Of a DNA stretch of 26,701 nucleotides, positions 18,459 to 26,024 are shown piece by piece. Position numbers and translations under genes: made by a program. Numbering within the stretch: position 1 is the stretch's first letter; the number at the start of each line of letters is the position of its first letter. Origin of the DNA: a virus; IMG/VR virus record IMGVR_UViG_3300042402_000088, positions 1 through 26,701 of that record; one strand, written 5' to 3'. The notes under the pieces were generated by a model. That model did not search any database and had not been told where the DNA came from. It was given only the letters and a program-made list of their open reading frames with translations.

Positions 18459-18601
18459 TACTCAGTCTCCTCTTTAGCCTCTGGCTTCGCCTTGGGCTTT
18501 TCTTTAATAGGTGTCCAGCCAATCTGCGCATAGCGGTCAAGATCAACCTCACAGGCAAGTATCTCATCGCCAGCTTTGTTATAAACTTTGACCATCTTCA
18601 T
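18458..18601 (-). CDS. Small 47-residue ORF between terminator and tube genes
   Basis: ATG 18599-18601 overlaps the upstream stop (ATGA) and the frame runs to TAA 18458-18460, which shares one base with the tube gene's ATG. Such perfect fit at both ends supports a real gene, although it is short. The protein starts KMVKVYNKAGDEILACEVDL, continues with a GWTPI turn, and ends in a Lys/Pro/Glu-rich tail. That pattern (a small beta start, Gly-Trp, charged low-complexity end) is seen in short phage virion-associated ORFs of unknown function. An alternative start two codons in (18593-18595) is possible. Confidence 0.7.
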   Translation of the reverse strand: MKMVKVYNKAGDEILACEVDLDRYAQIGWTPIKEKPKAKPEAKEETE

Positions 18602-19041
18602 CGCGGTGTCTCCAGATCAGCTAGTAGCGTAACATATTGCACTGCGTAAGACAACCGCGCATTAGCAACTGGCTTCTCACCTTCAACATTAATGTCAACG
18701 TCCGACTGCGACAGAATACAGCTTTTTACTAATCCTGACAACTGGAAATCAGAACCGATGGCATCCTCAATCAAAACACAGGCGTCATCTACTTGGTTTA
18801 TGATTGTTGAACTTTGGCCCTTAATAAAAATCTCTACAAAAACTTGCAGTGACCCCATAGATGTTTTTGTTCCTATGGTCGCCAGAGAATTAGTTTGGCT
18901 GTTTGTGTATATCACAGCCGCTGGAAGTTTCTCATCATCCAATGCGTAGGATCGCATCTTATACACGCGCCCAGAAAAGAAAGGCAAAGCGCCTATGATG
19001 TCAGCGATTCGGTCGCGTATCTGATTATTAATGTGCGACAT
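18598..19041 (-). CDS. Tail terminator-like protein, copy 2 (lambda U position)
   Basis: This 147-residue protein starts at ATG 19039-19041, sharing one base with the upstream stop (TAATG). It aligns with the upstream gene along its whole length: MSH at the start, a YALDD[E/A][K/Q]LPA[A/L] block, NLATIG, SGLVKSC[I/V]L[S/T]QSD, then GEK. The pattern and position before the tube genes match lambda gpU, which caps the tail. The two copies agree at roughly 40 percent of positions by eye. This copy lacks a 20-residue insertion near the N terminus. It may cap the tube while the other joins it to the head, or the reverse. Confidence 0.75.
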   Translation of the reverse strand: MSHINNQIRDRIADIIGALPFFSGRVYKMRSYALDDEKLPAAVIYTNSQTNSLATIGTKTSMGSLQVFVEIFIKGQSSTIINQVDDACVLIEDAIGSDFQLSGLVKSCILSQSDVDINVEGEKPVANARLSYAVQYVTLLADLETPR

Positions 19042-19556
19042 TAGATAGACACCTGGCAGTTATTGATGGCGGTCATGTACTTAACGTCAAAGATCATTTT
19101 GCCAGTGCCAATTGCCTTTTCGCCAGTTGTATTGACGCTGAAATCTGATTGCGTCAGCACACAGCTTTTGACAAGTCCTGAAAAGCTATAGTCATCTTCG
19201 ATTGCGCCATTCAATTCAGCGCAGAAAGCCTCTATGTTTTCAAAGATGTTTAGGCTTGATCCTTTGTTAATTACATCAACCCTTAATTCAAGGTTGTGTG
19301 ACAAAGTGCGACTGCCGATAGTGGCAAGGTTCGTTACATCATTTGTCGTGTAAACAATCAGTGCCGGAAGCTGTGCATCATCAAGCGCATATTTACGAAA
19401 CTTGTACAATGTTCCTGTGGAAAGTAAATTTTGACCCTGCCTAGCTGCAAGCTCAATGTTAAAGCGGTCCAGAATTACAATCCCGAACCTATCGTAGATA
19501 AAGTTTACCAGCAGGGTGGCAGCATAATCTCTGATCTGTTGCCGAACGTGGCTCAT
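19041..19556 (-). CDS. Tail terminator-like protein, copy 1 (lambda Z position)
   Basis: This 171-residue protein starts at ATG 19554-19556, two bases after the upstream stop, with a good ribosome site (AAGGTG). It carries the same KYALDDAQLPALIVYTT and SGLVKSCVLTQSD blocks as the next gene but has an extra segment near residues 20-45 (YDRFGIVILDRF). In lambda the Z gene in this slot is not related to U; here both slots hold members of one family. A role at the head-tail or tail end ring is likely. Which copy performs which step cannot be told. Confidence 0.72.
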   Translation of the reverse strand: MSHVRQQIRDYAATLLVNFIYDRFGIVILDRFNIELAARQGQNLLSTGTLYKFRKYALDDAQLPALIVYTTNDVTNLATIGSRTLSHNLELRVDVINKGSSLNIFENIEAFCAELNGAIEDDYSFSGLVKSCVLTQSDFSVNTTGEKAIGTGKMIFDVKYMTAINNCQVSI

Positions 19557-20092: not shown

Positions 20093-20109
20093 ATCATTCT
20101 CCAAAGAAG

Positions 20110-20146
20110 TTGAGGGCTGATATGACTTCCAAATATCAGCCCTCAA
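20110..20146 (-). promoter_or_regulatory. Perfect 14-bp hairpin after the capsid gene
   Basis: Positions 20110-20123 are exactly complementary to 20133-20146, leaving a 9-base loop. The hairpin begins 6 bases after the capsid stop codon. There is no T tract after it on the minus strand, so it is not a classic intrinsic terminator. It ends just before the ribosome site of the next gene. It could stabilise the capsid message, mark an RNA processing site or weaken translation of the genes beyond. Confidence 0.75.
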
Positions 20147-20152
20147 CATTAC

Positions 20153-21385
20153 TTATGCGCCGTCGTTGTTGTATGCGAACGAGACTGCGTTGCGAAGTGC
20201 AACGTCAATAGTCTGAAGCGCACGAACGCGAACAGTACCGCTGCTCGAAGCAGTGTATGGATCAACCAGAAGATCGAGTCCACCCCACATACCGATGAGG
20301 CAGTCAGCAAAGTTACCGAAGTATACGTTACCAGCAGTTGCCTGCTGAGTACGAATTACATTGTAACCGTTCGCTTCGCCGCCTTCGAGGACGAACATAC
20401 CCGAACCAGCGTCCTTGGCTTTGGTCTTCAGACCGCCGTAAGTGGCTGCGTCTGTGATGTAGGCCAAGTTGCCGAACAGAGCGTTGTCTTCTGCAACAGC
20501 AGTTTCCATCGCAACCATTTCAGCAAAGGTTGGAACAGCAGCAGCAAACGAGGTTGGCTTGTTTACACCAGAGGTGTTCAAGATACCCGTTGGCTGACCG
20601 GACGATCCGGAACCTTCCAATGCGCCCTTGTCGATTGCCAAGGCCAGAGCCTGTGTCAAATCGTCACGAACCAGTGCTTCGATGGCAGGGGTTGATTGCA
20701 GGATCAACTGGCGGGTCATGTCGGTGAATGCACCAACATTCTTTGGAGCCATCGATACCGTGCCGAAGGTTGGTTCAGATTCAGAGGCAGCGCCGCCTTC
20801 AGAACTGATCCAGCCGCCCGACGAAGCAGCAGTCTTCTTAGGGATAGCTACGTTGCCAACAAGACCTGGGAGCATACGCGCACCAGCTTGCATAACGGAC
20901 GAGGAGTTACGCAGAACGTCGATGAACTCGTTAGCAAGCAAGTTAGTTGCTACGATTTCGTTGTCGTCGCTGGTGTTCAGGTCGCGCTTCCAAACGCCGA
21001 GAACGTCGGTTGGGAGCATAACGCCCTGTGCAGCGCGGCCATAACGCTGTGCAGCAGCTTCCGAGACTTCAAACTCGAATGCAGCGGCTTCGCGAAGGCG
21101 ACGGTCAGTTGGGTTTGCGAGAGCAGCAATTGCACGAACAACCGAGAACTGACGGGCTTCTTTCTTCGTCAGGCCAATGTTTTCGTTTGCAAGTGGCTTG
21201 TCCGAACCAATTGCTTCGAGCAATTCACCACGGAATTGTTCAATGCTCTTGCCCGAACGGAGAGCGGCATCGCCAAGGTCACGTTTGTTATGACGAGCGG
21301 CGAGTTCGACGATTGCGGAGGCGTTACGAGCGGCAGCTTCAGCAGCTTCGGCCCGAACCGCATCCAAGTTTACTTCGTTGTCCAT
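20153..21385 (-). CDS. Major capsid protein from an internal start
   Basis: Within the fusion gene, ATG 21383-21385 is preceded by AAGAAGGAGTCCAAA, a near-ideal ribosome site with 6-base spacing. The resulting 410-residue product begins MDNEVNLDAVRAEA, exactly at the delta domain, and contains the whole capsid part. This is the usual size of an HK97-type capsid precursor with its delta region. Such in-frame internal starts are known in lambda (C and Nu3). It would let the phage make far more capsid subunit than protease from one gene. This second product is an inference from the ribosome site and domain edge. Confidence 0.7.
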   Translation of the reverse strand: MDNEVNLDAVRAEAAEAAARNASAIVELAARHNKRDLGDAALRSGKSIEQFRGELLEAIGSDKPLANENIGLTKKEARQFSVVRAIAALANPTDRRLREAAAFEFEVSEAAAQRYGRAAQGVMLPTDVLGVWKRDLNTSDDNEIVATNLLANEFIDVLRNSSSVMQAGARMLPGLVGNVAIPKKTAASSGGWISSEGGAASESEPTFGTVSMAPKNVGAFTDMTRQLILQSTPAIEALVRDDLTQALALAIDKGALEGSGSSGQPTGILNTSGVNKPTSFAAAVPTFAEMVAMETAVAEDNALFGNLAYITDAATYGGLKTKAKDAGSGMFVLEGGEANGYNVIRTQQATAGNVYFGNFADCLIGMWGGLDLLVDPYTASSSGTVRVRALQTIDVALRNAVSFAYNNDGA

Positions 21386-22045
21386 TTTGGACTCCTTCTT
21401 GATGGATGGTTCAATGGTAGGTTTGGGTTCGAGAGCAGCCGCGCTACGACCCACGCCAACTGACGGGTCAGCAGGGATAGAAACGACAGATACCTCAAGG
21501 GGCGACCAAGAGCGAACAAAGTATTCATCCTTATTCGTCGTGGATCGCTCCATTTTGTTGACGCGATAGCCCACCGAAACATTCGACCGGATACCATCGA
21601 CAACGTCCTGAAAAACTTCCTGAGCAAGTGCCGAGCGCCCGAACCTGACTTTGGCTCGAAGAACACGGTCCCCAGAAAGTTCCACGGATTCAATAACGCC
21701 AATCTGACGCTCTGGATCATGGTCCAGAAGCAGTGGCGCACGGCCCGAAGCGACAAAGCCCATATCAATGGCTCCGCTTTCATGGACCAGTATTTCCTTA
21801 CCGAATGAGCGGTCAACCGCCAGTTCAGAAGAAACAGCTATCTCAACAGTGCGCTTTTTCTCATCAACTGACTTAGCTGACATATCCATAGCGCGATGCA
21901 GAAGTTCGACAGGGGCTTTGCGCTCTTCCTCAGAAGGCAATTCCTCTTCGTCAACAACTTCCTCGACCATTTCCACTTCAGGATGATCTTCAGTGTCGAT
22001 TTCTATCTCGACTTTAATTGTGGCGCGTTCTTCAACTTCTGACAT
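20153..22045 (-). CDS. Prohead protease-major capsid fusion protein
   Basis: I use ATG 22043-22045, with a GGAG ribosome site at good spacing; an upstream TTG adds four residues only. The 630-residue protein has three parts. An acidic N terminus (about 1-45) leads to an S78/U35-type prohead protease (about 45-200): LLLDHDPERQIG with the expected catalytic His, and GIRSNVSVGYRV with the Ser. From about 221 a helical delta (scaffold) region is followed by an HK97-type capsid domain: VAIPKKTAASSGGWISSEG, ALAIDKGALEGSGSSGQPTGIL and a GGLDLLVDPYTASSSG end. Phages usually encode protease and capsid separately. Here they are in one frame, but an internal start could also make the capsid part alone (20153-21385). 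Cleavage between the parts is expected. Confidence 0.88.
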   Translation of the reverse strand: MSEVEERATIKVEIEIDTEDHPEVEMVEEVVDEEELPSEEERKAPVELLHRAMDMSAKSVDEKKRTVEIAVSSELAVDRSFGKEILVHESGAIDMGFVASGRAPLLLDHDPERQIGVIESVELSGDRVLRAKVRFGRSALAQEVFQDVVDGIRSNVSVGYRVNKMERSTTNKDEYFVRSWSPLEVSVVSIPADPSVGVGRSAAALEPKPTIEPSIKKESKMDNEVNLDAVRAEAAEAAARNASAIVELAARHNKRDLGDAALRSGKSIEQFRGELLEAIGSDKPLANENIGLTKKEARQFSVVRAIAALANPTDRRLREAAAFEFEVSEAAAQRYGRAAQGVMLPTDVLGVWKRDLNTSDDNEIVATNLLANEFIDVLRNSSSVMQAGARMLPGLVGNVAIPKKTAASSGGWISSEGGAASESEPTFGTVSMAPKNVGAFTDMTRQLILQSTPAIEALVRDDLTQALALAIDKGALEGSGSSGQPTGILNTSGVNKPTSFAAAVPTFAEMVAMETAVAEDNALFGNLAYITDAATYGGLKTKAKDAGSGMFVLEGGEANGYNVIRTQQATAGNVYFGNFADCLIGMWGGLDLLVDPYTASSSGTVRVRALQTIDVALRNAVSFAYNNDGA

Positions 22046-22098
22046 AAATTGCTCCAAAAAGCGTTTCAGCGAAACAATAACACCTAATTAAGAAAGAA

Positions 22099-23577
22099 TC
22101 AAACAATCGGTTCTGGTTCATCTTGACCCTTGATTGCTTCATTCGCGCCAAACGGGAAGAATGCTAATTCAAGACCAAAAGCGTCAGCCATTTCCTTGTC
22201 GCGCTGCCACTGGCTAAATGTCTCTTCGACATCGCGGCCATACTGACCAGCAACGTCCTGCATCGACATAACGCCATTGTGCATAGCGGTAACGGCTGCG
22301 TTGATTTCCTTTTGAGGATCGACCCACTGCCAACCACGGGGACGGAAACTTGAAGCGGATGAAAACTTGTCAAAGCGCGATACTGGAATTGGAATAAAAC
22401 CAAACTCCATAACGTGCCTGAGCCAAGCATTGTATGCTGGGATGACAAAATGCTCCATCAGGAACTGCTGCATCATCTTATAAGAGTCACGCTCTTCCAG
22501 CGCACCTTGACGGATCGAACTGTAGGATGTGCCTTCCAGATCGTTCGACAGCGCAGCATAGGATACGCCAAGGCCAGACGCGATACCGCGAATGATGCCC
22601 TTCTGGAAATCGCTGAATGCAGTCGCTGGGTGCGATGGATCAAATGGCTTGAAGTCAACGCCATTGGGCAACTGATGGAAAGTGCCTGGTTCCGCATCAA
22701 TGATCGGGACAGTGTTGTCGTAATCGTCGGCTGGGGCATCTTCGCCATTGTCTGACGTAAAGAAGCCCATCTTAGATGCAGCCATACGCGATGCGACCAA
22801 CTCAGCCTCACGGTGAGCGTTCAACATCTTCAACTGGCTCATGGCAGGGGCCAGCCAAGGTTCGCCGCGTGTCTGACCAGCGCGAAGCGGATCATAAACA
22901 TGGATGATATTTTTCGCGTCAATGCGGTTAGACGAATTGATAGAGATGGATGAGAAATCAGAATCACCAGGGTGACGCTTCTTTACCCAATAGGCAACAG
23001 GACGCTGGAACTCATCGACCTCAACGCCCATGCGGATTTCGCGTCCGTTACGCAGCTTCTCGTTCTTCTGCTCATCGATCTGGTCAGATTCAATAGGGTG
23101 GAATGCGATGCCGTGAATAAACACACGGTTAGGCACGATCTGGATAATAGCCTCGCCATCACGCGCAGTCGCTTCTATCACATATTTCTGAAGGTCGATC
23201 CAGCTTAGGCGACCATCTGCCGTGCAGTTGCCTTTAAGGGCAAACTGGGAAAACGCATCTTCAATAATTTGGTTGCCAATTGAATCCAGCGATCCGTTCG
23301 TGTTTCGCGCCTTAACTTGCAGGGTCATGCCCTTGTCACCGACCACGTTGGTCTTGAGCAAGTTCATAAAACGCTTAACGTAAACATCATTACGCGCCAG
23401 TTCACGCGAACGGTTACGCATCAGAACTAGGTCAGGTTTTAATTCACTGTCAGGGCTGCGGCTAGATGCCATAAAGTCGGCAAAGAGCCGACCCGTATTC
23501 GCAGCGTGATAAGAACGCTTCGCTACTTTGTTCTGTACCTTTGGGGGCAAGCCCAATGCTTCACGCCACAAACTCAT
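22099..23577 (-). CDS. Portal protein, lambda gpB family
   Basis: This 492-residue protein starts at ATG 23575-23577 in an ATGA overlap. It has the Phage_portal_2 pattern: a RNRSRELARNDVYVKRF helix near residue 60, VVGDKGMTLQVKA, WIDLQKYVIEATARDGEA, then FHPIESDQID, HVYDPLRAGQTRGEPWLAPA and GLGVSYAALSNDLEGTSYSS. The last part contains FIPIPVSRFDK, RGWQWVDPQKE and a Lys/Ala-rich tail. The length is typical. Twelve copies form the DNA entry ring at one head vertex, where terminase docks and the tail later joins. No anomalies. Confidence 0.93.
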   Translation of the reverse strand: MSLWREALGLPPKVQNKVAKRSYHAANTGRLFADFMASSRSPDSELKPDLVLMRNRSRELARNDVYVKRFMNLLKTNVVGDKGMTLQVKARNTNGSLDSIGNQIIEDAFSQFALKGNCTADGRLSWIDLQKYVIEATARDGEAIIQIVPNRVFIHGIAFHPIESDQIDEQKNEKLRNGREIRMGVEVDEFQRPVAYWVKKRHPGDSDFSSISINSSNRIDAKNIIHVYDPLRAGQTRGEPWLAPAMSQLKMLNAHREAELVASRMAASKMGFFTSDNGEDAPADDYDNTVPIIDAEPGTFHQLPNGVDFKPFDPSHPATAFSDFQKGIIRGIASGLGVSYAALSNDLEGTSYSSIRQGALEERDSYKMMQQFLMEHFVIPAYNAWLRHVMEFGFIPIPVSRFDKFSSASSFRPRGWQWVDPQKEINAAVTAMHNGVMSMQDVAGQYGRDVEETFSQWQRDKEMADAFGLELAFFPFGANEAIKGQDEPEPIV

Positions 23578-24167: not shown

Positions 24168-26024
24168 TCAGCGCCAGTTGTTAGCGAAACCGCCTCTACG
24201 AACAGGCTTTTTGCCAGCCGTTAAAGGATGGCGTTTATCAGCTTCTTCGACATTTGGCAATTTATGCTTTTCCATGTTAGCATAAAACTTACGGGCCACG
24301 CTATCCATATTTACATTTAGGATCGTAAGAGCCGCAATTGCATACACTCTAACGTCCAAAGCTTCGTTTCTTGTTCGCGTTTTAACCCAGACACGCGATG
24401 GGAAACCCTTGTGATAGCGGATCATCTGCTTTTCAGCAGTTAGCTGCTTAAAATACTCGTCATCCCGCTTGGCAGGGAAGTGACAATAGCCTGGACCAGC
24501 CTCATCCATCTTCAAGCGCGAGTAATGAACCTCTTTTGCCGTATCAACGCCAATGGGATAAAGCGGAACCCTGCCGATGTTGTTCTTGGACGGACGCCCG
24601 ACAATCGGCTTGCCCTCTCCGCCAACACCCTTGATGGCAAACACTCTATGTCCGGCGCGTGTCTTAGCATAGTTGTAAACAGCCCGTGTGTGGTGTCCGC
24701 CAGTATCAATACAGGTGGCACGGACAAGCATTGGCTCACCAGATGGATGCTCATAGGTCGCCAGCAAGACCTCATCGACCTTGTGCCATAGCTGTGTGGT
24801 GGATGGGTCGCCGTAAATTACATGGTAATCGATCTGCCAGCTTTCTTCGCCAGCGCCCCAGCCCACAATCTCGACTTCGACGCGGTCATCCTGAACGTCG
24901 GCTCCAGCCGTCAGCAGTACCACCTCATCAGGGATGCCTTCGTAATCTTCCTTACGCTGCGCCACAGCATAATCATCCACACCCTCGCCAGCATCTTCCC
25001 ATGTCTCGCCAAGGAAGGTGTTTACAAAGGTCTTTAGCCGCATTGGGTTCTTCCGCGCCGCCAAAAACTCCTCGATTGCGTCGGATAACACTGACCACGG
25101 TGAGTAAAGTGCGTTTAAATGGAACCCTGCCACACCGTTGAACGGCGCAAAAGCCACCCATTCACCATTGCGAACAGCCCTGTGCCGATCCGTATCTGAC
25201 CAGACAGAGCCACATTCAGCGCAGTGATAAGCGCCAGTGCTGGGATTATCGTCAGTCCAAGTCACGTTCGACCACGCCAAGACCTGTTTGTGTCCGCATT
25301 GATGGCACGGAACCATAAACTTGCGCTGGTCGCTTTCGTTATAGGCCGACTCAATTCGGCTCCCACCCTTATTCGTAGGCGTGGATACTAGAATGATCTT
25401 CCTGTTCCAGAAGGTTGCGGCTCTTCGTTTGGCAAGAGATATTGGATCGCCCTCTTCACCAGCAGAAGGAGGGTATCGATCAACTTCATCGCAAAGAACA
25501 ACACGAATCGGGCGAGAAGCAAGGGAACTAGGAGAATTAGCGCCGACAAGAGAAAGAGCGCCACCGGGAAAAACTTTATGAAGCGTAGTGTTGTTTGCAT
25601 CTTTGGCCTTACTGTCTTTAACCTTGTCTCGAAGGCAAGGGGTTGAGCGTAACAGACCCGCTGTCACACGGTCCTTACTAAAACTCTGCGCCATATCCAC
25701 AGTTGGCTGCATCATCAGAATAGGCGCAGGATCGTGGGCCATGTGGTATCCAATGGTGTTCAGCAGCATCTCAGACTTGCCAAGCTGCGCACCGCACATC
25801 ACCACAACCTCTTTGACCAGCGGATCAGAGCAAGCATCCATGATACCGCGCTGGTACTCAGCCCTTGATGTCACCCATCGACCAGGCTCAGAACTACTCT
25901 GTGAGTCCAACCGACGTTCATGGTCGGCCCACTGGGCCACACTCATACGCGGAGGCGGCGTCATCTGCTTCATGGCCTTGGCCATTTGCTCCAGTGCGGA
26001 TTCTCTGGTGGCTTGTTCGATCAT
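24168..26024 (-). CDS. Terminase large subunit, GpA family
   Basis: This 618-residue ATPase/nuclease pumps DNA into proheads and cuts the concatemer. ATG 26022-26024 overlaps the small terminase stop. The ATPase domain has a Walker A-like CGAQLGKSEM (about residue 77), LMMQPTVDMAQSFSKDR, and a Walker B VVLCDEVDRYP (about 177). A zinc-binding segment follows (CHQCGHK, then CAECGS, about residues 241-270). The nuclease half begins near 340: LTAGADVQDDRVEVEIVGWG holds the first acidic residue, DTGGHHTRAVYNYAKTR the next. The C terminus is basic. GpA-type terminases usually cut at cos sites, so cohesive ends are likely, though no cos site was identified. Confidence 0.94.
   Translation of the reverse strand: MIEQATRESALEQMAKAMKQMTPPPRMSVAQWADHERRLDSQSSSEPGRWVTSRAEYQRGIMDACSDPLVKEVVVMCGAQLGKSEMLLNTIGYHMAHDPAPILMMQPTVDMAQSFSKDRVTAGLLRSTPCLRDKVKDSKAKDANNTTLHKVFPGGALSLVGANSPSSLASRPIRVVLCDEVDRYPPSAGEEGDPISLAKRRAATFWNRKIILVSTPTNKGGSRIESAYNESDQRKFMVPCHQCGHKQVLAWSNVTWTDDNPSTGAYHCAECGSVWSDTDRHRAVRNGEWVAFAPFNGVAGFHLNALYSPWSVLSDAIEEFLAARKNPMRLKTFVNTFLGETWEDAGEGVDDYAVAQRKEDYEGIPDEVVLLTAGADVQDDRVEVEIVGWGAGEESWQIDYHVIYGDPSTTQLWHKVDEVLLATYEHPSGEPMLVRATCIDTGGHHTRAVYNYAKTRAGHRVFAIKGVGGEGKPIVGRPSKNNIGRVPLYPIGVDTAKEVHYSRLKMDEAGPGYCHFPAKRDDEYFKQLTAEKQMIRYHKGFPSRVWVKTRTRNEALDVRVYAIAALTILNVNMDSVARKFYANMEKHKLPNVEEADKRHPLTAGKKPVRRGGFANNWR

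Follow-up and report, generated by a model that had tools for sequence, protein, structure and literature searches.

The fused protease–capsid gene and its setting

The window (the whole stretch of DNA analysed here, a record of 26,701 bases) carries a lambda-like head and packaging module on the minus strand, comprising terminase, head–tail joining, portal, a fused protease–capsid gene and head closure. The fused gene, also on this strand, starts at ATG 22045, ends with a stop codon at 20155–20153 and encodes 630 amino acids; the mechanical ORF caller places its start at TTG 22057, not at ATG 22045. The features of the locus are as follows.

20153..22045, minus strand: fused gene, S78 prohead protease, linker, delta (scaffold) domain and HK97-type major capsid protein (ORF, translation, Pfam, PHROG, NCBIfam)
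22052..22055, minus strand: GGAG before the full-length start ATG 22045 (sequence; duplex −5.6 kcal/mol)
21482..21901, minus strand: protease domain, strands, residues 49–188 (AlphaFold2 model, alignments, Pfam S78)
21377..21469, minus strand: variable low-confidence linker holding the internal start, residues 193–223 (pLDDT < 50; column entropy)
21392..21397, minus strand: internal Shine-Dalgarno sequence AAGGAG (sequence; conservation)
21380..21392, minus strand: 5-bp start-codon hairpin GUCCA-AAA-UGGAC, with the U and G of the AUG in the stem (folding, covariation)
21383..21385, minus strand: internal start codon ATG, codon 221 (sequence; conservation of the Met column)
20156..21385, minus strand: predicted internal product, delta plus capsid, 410 amino acids (translation; proposed from the conserved start)
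21041..21367, minus strand: delta (scaffold) domain helices, residues 227–335 (AlphaFold2 model)
20156..20965, minus strand: mature capsid domain, approximately residues 361–630 (alignment to the R4C capsid chain 8gta; exact cleavage site predicted)

Peptidase_S78 is matched at residues 101–197 (E 3e-8; 34.4 bits against a Pfam cut-off of 21) and Phage_capsid (PF05065) at residues 370–624 (E 3e-36; 125.6 bits against a cut-off of 24.2), so that the gene carries both domains, each above its Pfam cut-off, by which we recognized an HK97-type head module. PHROG 617, the family of fused prohead protease–major capsid proteins, is matched over residues 49–627 (profile 9–622 of 626, E 3e-150). The NCBIfam protease model TIGR01543 scored 41.7 bits, below its cut-off of 59, and the protease/capsid fusion model NF045541 scored 154.5 bits, over residues 60–318 only, below its curated cut-off of 525 bits. 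An AlphaFold2 model of the 630-residue protein (mean pLDDT 74, pTM 0.49) shows a second low-confidence stretch at residues 352–372, between the delta helices and the capsid part. The proposal of the sequence-only reading that one frame joins a prohead protease to delta and capsid domains is thus confirmed by the ORF, Pfam, PHROG 617 and the structural model. Neither H109 nor S157 varies in two alignments, each of 36 sequences; Met221 is nearly invariant in one of these and not in the other. The solved capsid chain of R4C (8gta) comprises residues 362–629 of that phage's own fused protein, with nothing before residue 362 present.

Two further observations concern the surrounding module. PHROG 4204, a tail-terminator family, is matched by two adjoining minus-strand genes (18598–19041 and 19041–19556), representing either a duplication or two related neck proteins. 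The terminase large subunit (24168–26024, minus strand) has a TFIIS-type zinc ribbon above the Pfam cut-off (27.0 versus 21 bits) at residues 239–275, where the ATPase match ends and ahead of the nuclease match.

A probable internal start site at the edge of the delta domain

Reading along the gene strand, AAGGAG (21397–21392) is followed by TCCAAA and then by ATG (21385–21383). This is the arrangement given by the sequence-only reading, an AAGGAG six nucleotides before an in-frame ATG, here assigned to the minus strand. Its further claim that this ATG lies at the edge of the delta domain agrees with structure prediction: AlphaFold2 places Met221 within the linker, between the protease domain and the delta helices and just before the first of them.

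Shine-Dalgarno strength was scored as the energy of the RNA duplex with the 3' tail of 16S rRNA. The internal site scores −8.3 kcal/mol by comparison with −5.6 for the fused gene's own start. Among 150 internal in-frame ATGs in the window (taken from 28 minus-strand ORFs hand-chosen as likely genes, with the first 30 codons excluded) it is the joint strongest, tying with one other, and only two of the 28 chosen ORFs have a gene start that scores stronger.

A separate short capsid message made from an internal promoter could also underlie a second product; in herpesvirus UL26/UL26.5 the short message does come from an internal promoter. One sigma70-like match, at 21816–21789, precedes the junction on the coding strand of the gene; however, in this search of sigma70-like promoters a single match is the level of shuffled sequence (mean 1.1), and a short message would still require the Shine-Dalgarno match. 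We consider such a message extremely improbable.

The start codon at the junction is conserved among diverse fusions

Relatives were drawn from viral contigs, genomes and named phages, among them Roseobacter phage CRP-811, at 63% identity, and the coliphage vB_EcoM-ep3, which belongs to group B below. Each scan yielded its best loci, up to 80, and the relatives are therefore samples. A second fusion family was seeded with Stenotrophomonas phage S1 and a third, of ClpP type, with Gifsy-2; R4C, used as a seed, found no relatives. Thinning by shared 5-mers kept 133 of at least 282, 41 of at least 76 and 18 of at least 81 loci listed, giving 192 representatives, 182 of which entered the counts. 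These were divided into five groups: window-like (A), Persinger-like (B), cyanophage-like (C), S1-like (D) and ClpP-like (E). By Pfam, the window, Persinger and S-LBS1 combine S78 with Phage_capsid; RcOceanus combines S78 with Phage_capsid_4, S1 itself hitting the capsid model only; and Gifsy-2 combines CLP_protease with Phage_capsid_4.

Ten of the 192 rows were dropped (L101, L123, L124, L125, L184, L189, L190, L192, L185 and L282), L123 being counted in group D instead; six of them (L123, L124, L125, L189, L190 and L192) were removed manually because they were unfused, only partly aligned or counted elsewhere. At the junction column, the dropped rows L192 and L189 have an ATG with a Shine-Dalgarno match (−8.3 and −9.3 respectively), L125 an ATG with a weak match (−1.5) and L190 an ATG without one. 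L184 is split over several frames and L101 is truncated, and the distant loci L124 and L125 encode protease and capsid protein in separate genes; a non-systematic look at such odd loci revealed no clean split relative, i.e. one in which a stop codon immediately precedes the internal ATG. In L077 (2839–4699) the N-terminal part of the protease is in a different frame from the rest, through a frameshift or a sequencing error, with the internal start and the capsid part staying open.

In 169 of the 182 representative fusions there is a start codon no more than two codons from the junction column (A, 30/32; B, 57/63; C, 28/28; D, 36/41; E, 18/18). Counting a Shine-Dalgarno match as −4.5 kcal/mol or lower, a threshold set after the junction scores were known but with which threshold-free rank tests agree, the junction start has a match far more often than the other in-frame ATGs of the same ORFs in four groups: window-like, 30/30 versus 61/419; Persinger-like, 43/57 versus 127/918; S1-like, 32/36 versus 69/568; and ClpP-like, 18/18 versus 49/471. 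In all five groups, RNA folding is weaker around the junction start than it is at other ATGs. When the same amino acids were recoded with each ORF's own codon usage, the observed match was stronger than the synonymous mean in 21/30 sequences of group A, 44/57 of B, 33/36 of D and 16/18 of E (Wilcoxon 7e-4, 1e-6, 2e-7 and 7e-5 respectively; these p-values are inexact because the representatives share ancestry and were treated as independent). This is a group effect, the median single-sequence p being 0.22–0.43 in these four groups. The motif also occurs in all three codon phases among Persinger-like fusions (24/14/11). The phase argument rests on this group, since one phase dominates in window-like (28/29), S1-like (31/34) and ClpP-like (18/18) fusions.

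The sequence-only reading had tied its proposal to retention of the internal ribosome site in relatives that keep the fusion, and loss of the site was seen only in part. The cyanophage-like group retains ATG or GTG in 28/28 sequences but shows no Shine-Dalgarno enrichment (4/28 at the junction versus 68/375 at other in-frame ATGs), and only 12/28 exceed their synonymous mean. S-LBS1 has a Shine-Dalgarno match at 19 of 46 scored annotated starts (52 annotated), and its absence at the junction is therefore not simply a genome-wide habit of this phage. Cyanophage-like fusions (e.g. L105, L208 and L235) have a C-rich, weakly folded stretch before the ATG or GTG in place of the match; this could suit initiation without a Shine-Dalgarno sequence, or be a mere effect of a proline-rich linker.

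In the remaining 13 of the 182 fusions, no start codon falls within this two-codon limit around the junction column. Four of them (L165, L098, L178 and L183) have a start 2 to 24 codons downstream with a match, that of L165 being GTG, and L170 has a GTG with a match six codons downstream. In L310, L314, L317 and L176 an ATG lies 10–12 codons downstream and its match is weak or absent; in L345 and L358 an ATG lies nine and six codons upstream respectively and has no match. In only two fusions is ATG missing from the 30 codons on either side of the junction: L091, with a GTG 10 codons upstream and a borderline match, and L187, in which ATG, GTG and TTG are all absent from this interval.

Could the protein, as opposed to the DNA, be what is conserved? 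Met221 and the nearby K-E might be kept as a processing site or helix cap, the DNA motif being a by-product. Consistent with this, the ClpP group also conserves the residues around the Met (R, E, E/D, F, then M-P), K-E is common in the window clade and, as above, groups A, D and E hold a single codon phase. However, where Val replaces Met at the junction column of cyanophage-like fusions it is encoded by GTG in 6/6 cases, by comparison with 715 of 1518 Val codons elsewhere in those ORFs. The junction Met, found in 102 of 120 occupied rows and the best-conserved Met column of the alignment, has an entropy of 1.03, against 2.5–3.6 for the flanking columns and 1.86 for the median column. The synonymous tests, on the motif and on the hairpin described below, also argue against a constraint at the protein level, which we judge very unlikely. 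Among 73 distinct window-clade ORFs, the motif lysine codon is AAG in 71/71 and the adjoining upstream codon is AAA in 36 and AAG in 30; lysine elsewhere in these ORFs is encoded by AAG 1416 times and AAA 647 times.

From this comparison, the junction ATG is very likely a working internal start; the conservation of its Shine-Dalgarno sequence holds across three architectures, with an S78 or a ClpP protease and two capsid families.

A covarying hairpin on the internal start codon

In the window the internal AUG lies in a small hairpin that is absent from the sequence-only reading. We examined it in a window-clade sample of 124 loci among the matches listed, with at least 58% identity and with some contigs duplicated, which gave 31 distinct 27-mers. 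Four or five pairs with a 3-nt loop form in 25 of these 31, in stem variants that include AGUCA/UGACU, GGUCA/UGACC, GGCCA/UGGCU, AGCCA/UGGCU, GUCCA/UGGAC, GGACA/UGUCC and AGACA/UGUCU; the hairpin is in a different register in L046 and L484 and is not formed in L059, L081, L082 and L102. As the U and G of the AUG are fixed, two-sided variation is possible at only three of the five pairs. The outer pair provides two double synonymous contrasts, GAG GTC AAA ATG ACC with GAA GTC AAA ATG ACT, and GAG GAC ACT ATG TCC with GAA GAC ACT ATG TCT.

By comparison with shuffles, 91.0% of hairpin cells are paired versus 74.8% (0/500), the covariation score is 0.511 versus 0.233 (0/500; 0.007–0.112 with a slid partner) and 30 cells are altered on both sides versus 10.1 (0/500). 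Two cruder measures of covariation were no better than shuffles (pairs changed on both sides, 3 versus 2.0, 129/500; further pair types, 7 versus 7.5, 462/500). When the 3' arms were re-dealt in 20,000 trials the maximum was 67 of 93 paired cells, against 79 observed; the same re-dealing over the 14 distinct arm combinations gave p = 0.00065. On an 89-tip tree, 7/7, 6/7 and 5/7 of the double changes that fall on a single branch leave the bases paired at the three variable pairs; these events are not independent, in that several pairs often change at once and one event may be repeated through recombination. Further one-sided changes (totals 15+15, 10+7 and 15+11) fall on different branches in the reconstruction.

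Synonymous recoding predicts 3.75 pairs where 4.55 are observed, with 27 of the 31 haplotypes exceeding expectation. RNAalifold on 51 sequences predicted four of the five hairpin pairs, with a weak total energy of −2.9 kcal/mol, and a 3-pair stem further downstream with next to no covariation. In a scan of 1485 positions from codon 131 onward, for which the representatives had been selected by variation at the hairpin site, the hairpin ranks first in two-sided changes (25; next 17). No Rfam family reached its gathering score within 20100–22200.

The hairpin is not a general feature of these fusions. A stem of at least 4 bp with a 3-nt loop on the ATG occurs in 21/30 window-like sequences; in the other groups, such a stem occurs in 1/57 (B), 1/22 (C), 3/35 (D) and 0/18 (E). 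We also considered an outer stem, GAACC-AUCCA upstream with UGGAU-GGUUC downstream, suggested by single-sequence folds of several relatives; it was rejected, being absent from the RNAalifold prediction on the 51 sequences and, as judged by eye from a sequence listing, broken in some relatives.

The hairpin and the motif share one base, the last of the motif, and a G at this position strengthens both the Shine-Dalgarno match and the stem. In the window clade the AUG hairpin probably tunes the internal start; with the AUG inside the stem, initiation could be lowered rather than raised.

Two proposed nested products from one frame

Taking as observations the site, its conservation, nucleotide-level selection and the covarying hairpin, we propose that the gene very probably consists of two nested, 3'-coterminal genes in one frame, encoding the 630-residue protease–delta–capsid protein and a predicted 410-residue delta–capsid protein. 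Both would be translated from one mRNA: ribosomes starting at 22045 would make the full-length chain and those starting at 21385 the short chain, which we infer to be the major form, making up most of the shell. Sharing their assembly domains, the two chains should co-assemble, and the minority of full-length chains would thereby carry a covalently tethered protease into the prohead. Cleavage of every chain near residue 361 by this protease would follow, leaving identical mature capsid subunits; given that the R4C chain comprises residues 362–629, long and short precursors would yield one and the same mature subunit. If maturation does remove both N-termini in this way, virion proteomics would hardly see the internal start.

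The sequence-only reading had suggested two products in unequal amounts as a solution to the stoichiometry of a fusion. Two products from one gene are strongly supported by the start-codon conservation, by Shine-Dalgarno matches beyond coding need in four of the five groups and by the covarying hairpin; the unequal ratio is plausible by analogy. The HK97 prohead has 415 capsid proteins to about 60 proteases, and that of D3 about 90 proteases, according to the available text of PMC12749128. A fusion poses a problem of numbers, protease versus capsid, to which the conserved internal start would be an answer.

It is also conceivable that only the 630-residue fusion is made and cleaves itself to release the capsid protein, with the ATG and AAGGAG being relics of a once separate capsid gene. 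All 24 annotated fused phage records that we examined give one protein (24/24), and a second same-strand coding sequence at the junction is listed in 0/24; processing, as in 8gta, hides the start of the precursor; and group C lacks the Shine-Dalgarno match. A relic should decay, however, and yet the motif persists in linkers that vary greatly in sequence; it is on average stronger than synonymous recoding predicts, group B has it in more than one codon phase, and the AUG retains a covarying hairpin. Production of the full-length chain alone is thus unlikely. Under the two-product model, recurrence of the internal start with different proteases and capsid families indicates that annotation of these genes as single products is probably wrong, all 24 records omitting the start of a possible major precursor.

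Nested starts in protease genes and protease–capsid fusions are each already known. In phage Mu and PaMx73 the scaffold is made from an in-frame start inside the protease gene, as we propose for the window, and the internal scaffold start of PaMx73 has a plausible Shine-Dalgarno sequence (available text of PMC4378225). In lambda, C/Nu3 is one gene encoding protease and scaffold (available text of PMC8508860, the reference list of which includes a title on the C/Nu3 overlap). With lambda C/Nu3 and Mu the window gene shares an in-frame internal start with a Shine-Dalgarno sequence after the protease domain. It differs in that the nested product of lambda, Mu and PaMx73 is scaffold only, with a separate capsid gene, whereas that of the window would contain scaffold and capsid (PF05065). 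HK97 has the same protease–delta–capsid order in gp4 protease and gp5 capsid (PMC12749128 and PMC8508860, available text), but as two separate genes rather than one continuous frame. The fused architecture is common to MD8 gp5 (ClpP type), the Rhodobacter RcC cluster, PHROG 617, PHROG 4523 and NF045541. The MD8 and RcC fusions have been described (PMC8508860 and PMC8601537), with no mention of an internal start or hairpin in the available text of these two papers. No report of an internal capsid start within a protease–capsid fusion was found in searches directed at the start, in a literature with few subscription papers; on this basis, the internal start for the capsid protein within a fusion appears to be new.

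In the window clade, the hairpin may go beyond tuning and act as a translational gate, a possibility we put forward tentatively and consider rather less likely than not to hold. The Shine-Dalgarno sequence would be exposed and the AUG locked in the 5-bp stem, so that internal initiation would depend on ribosomes arriving from the protease start, which would perhaps melt the stem; simple tuning is the alternative reading. If there is such a gate, capsid output would be coupled to protease output and their ratio fixed in one RNA, with the other groups, as a rule without such a hairpin, leaving the site open. The covarying hairpin offers a compact example of a start codon within a coding sequence that is itself part of an RNA structure.
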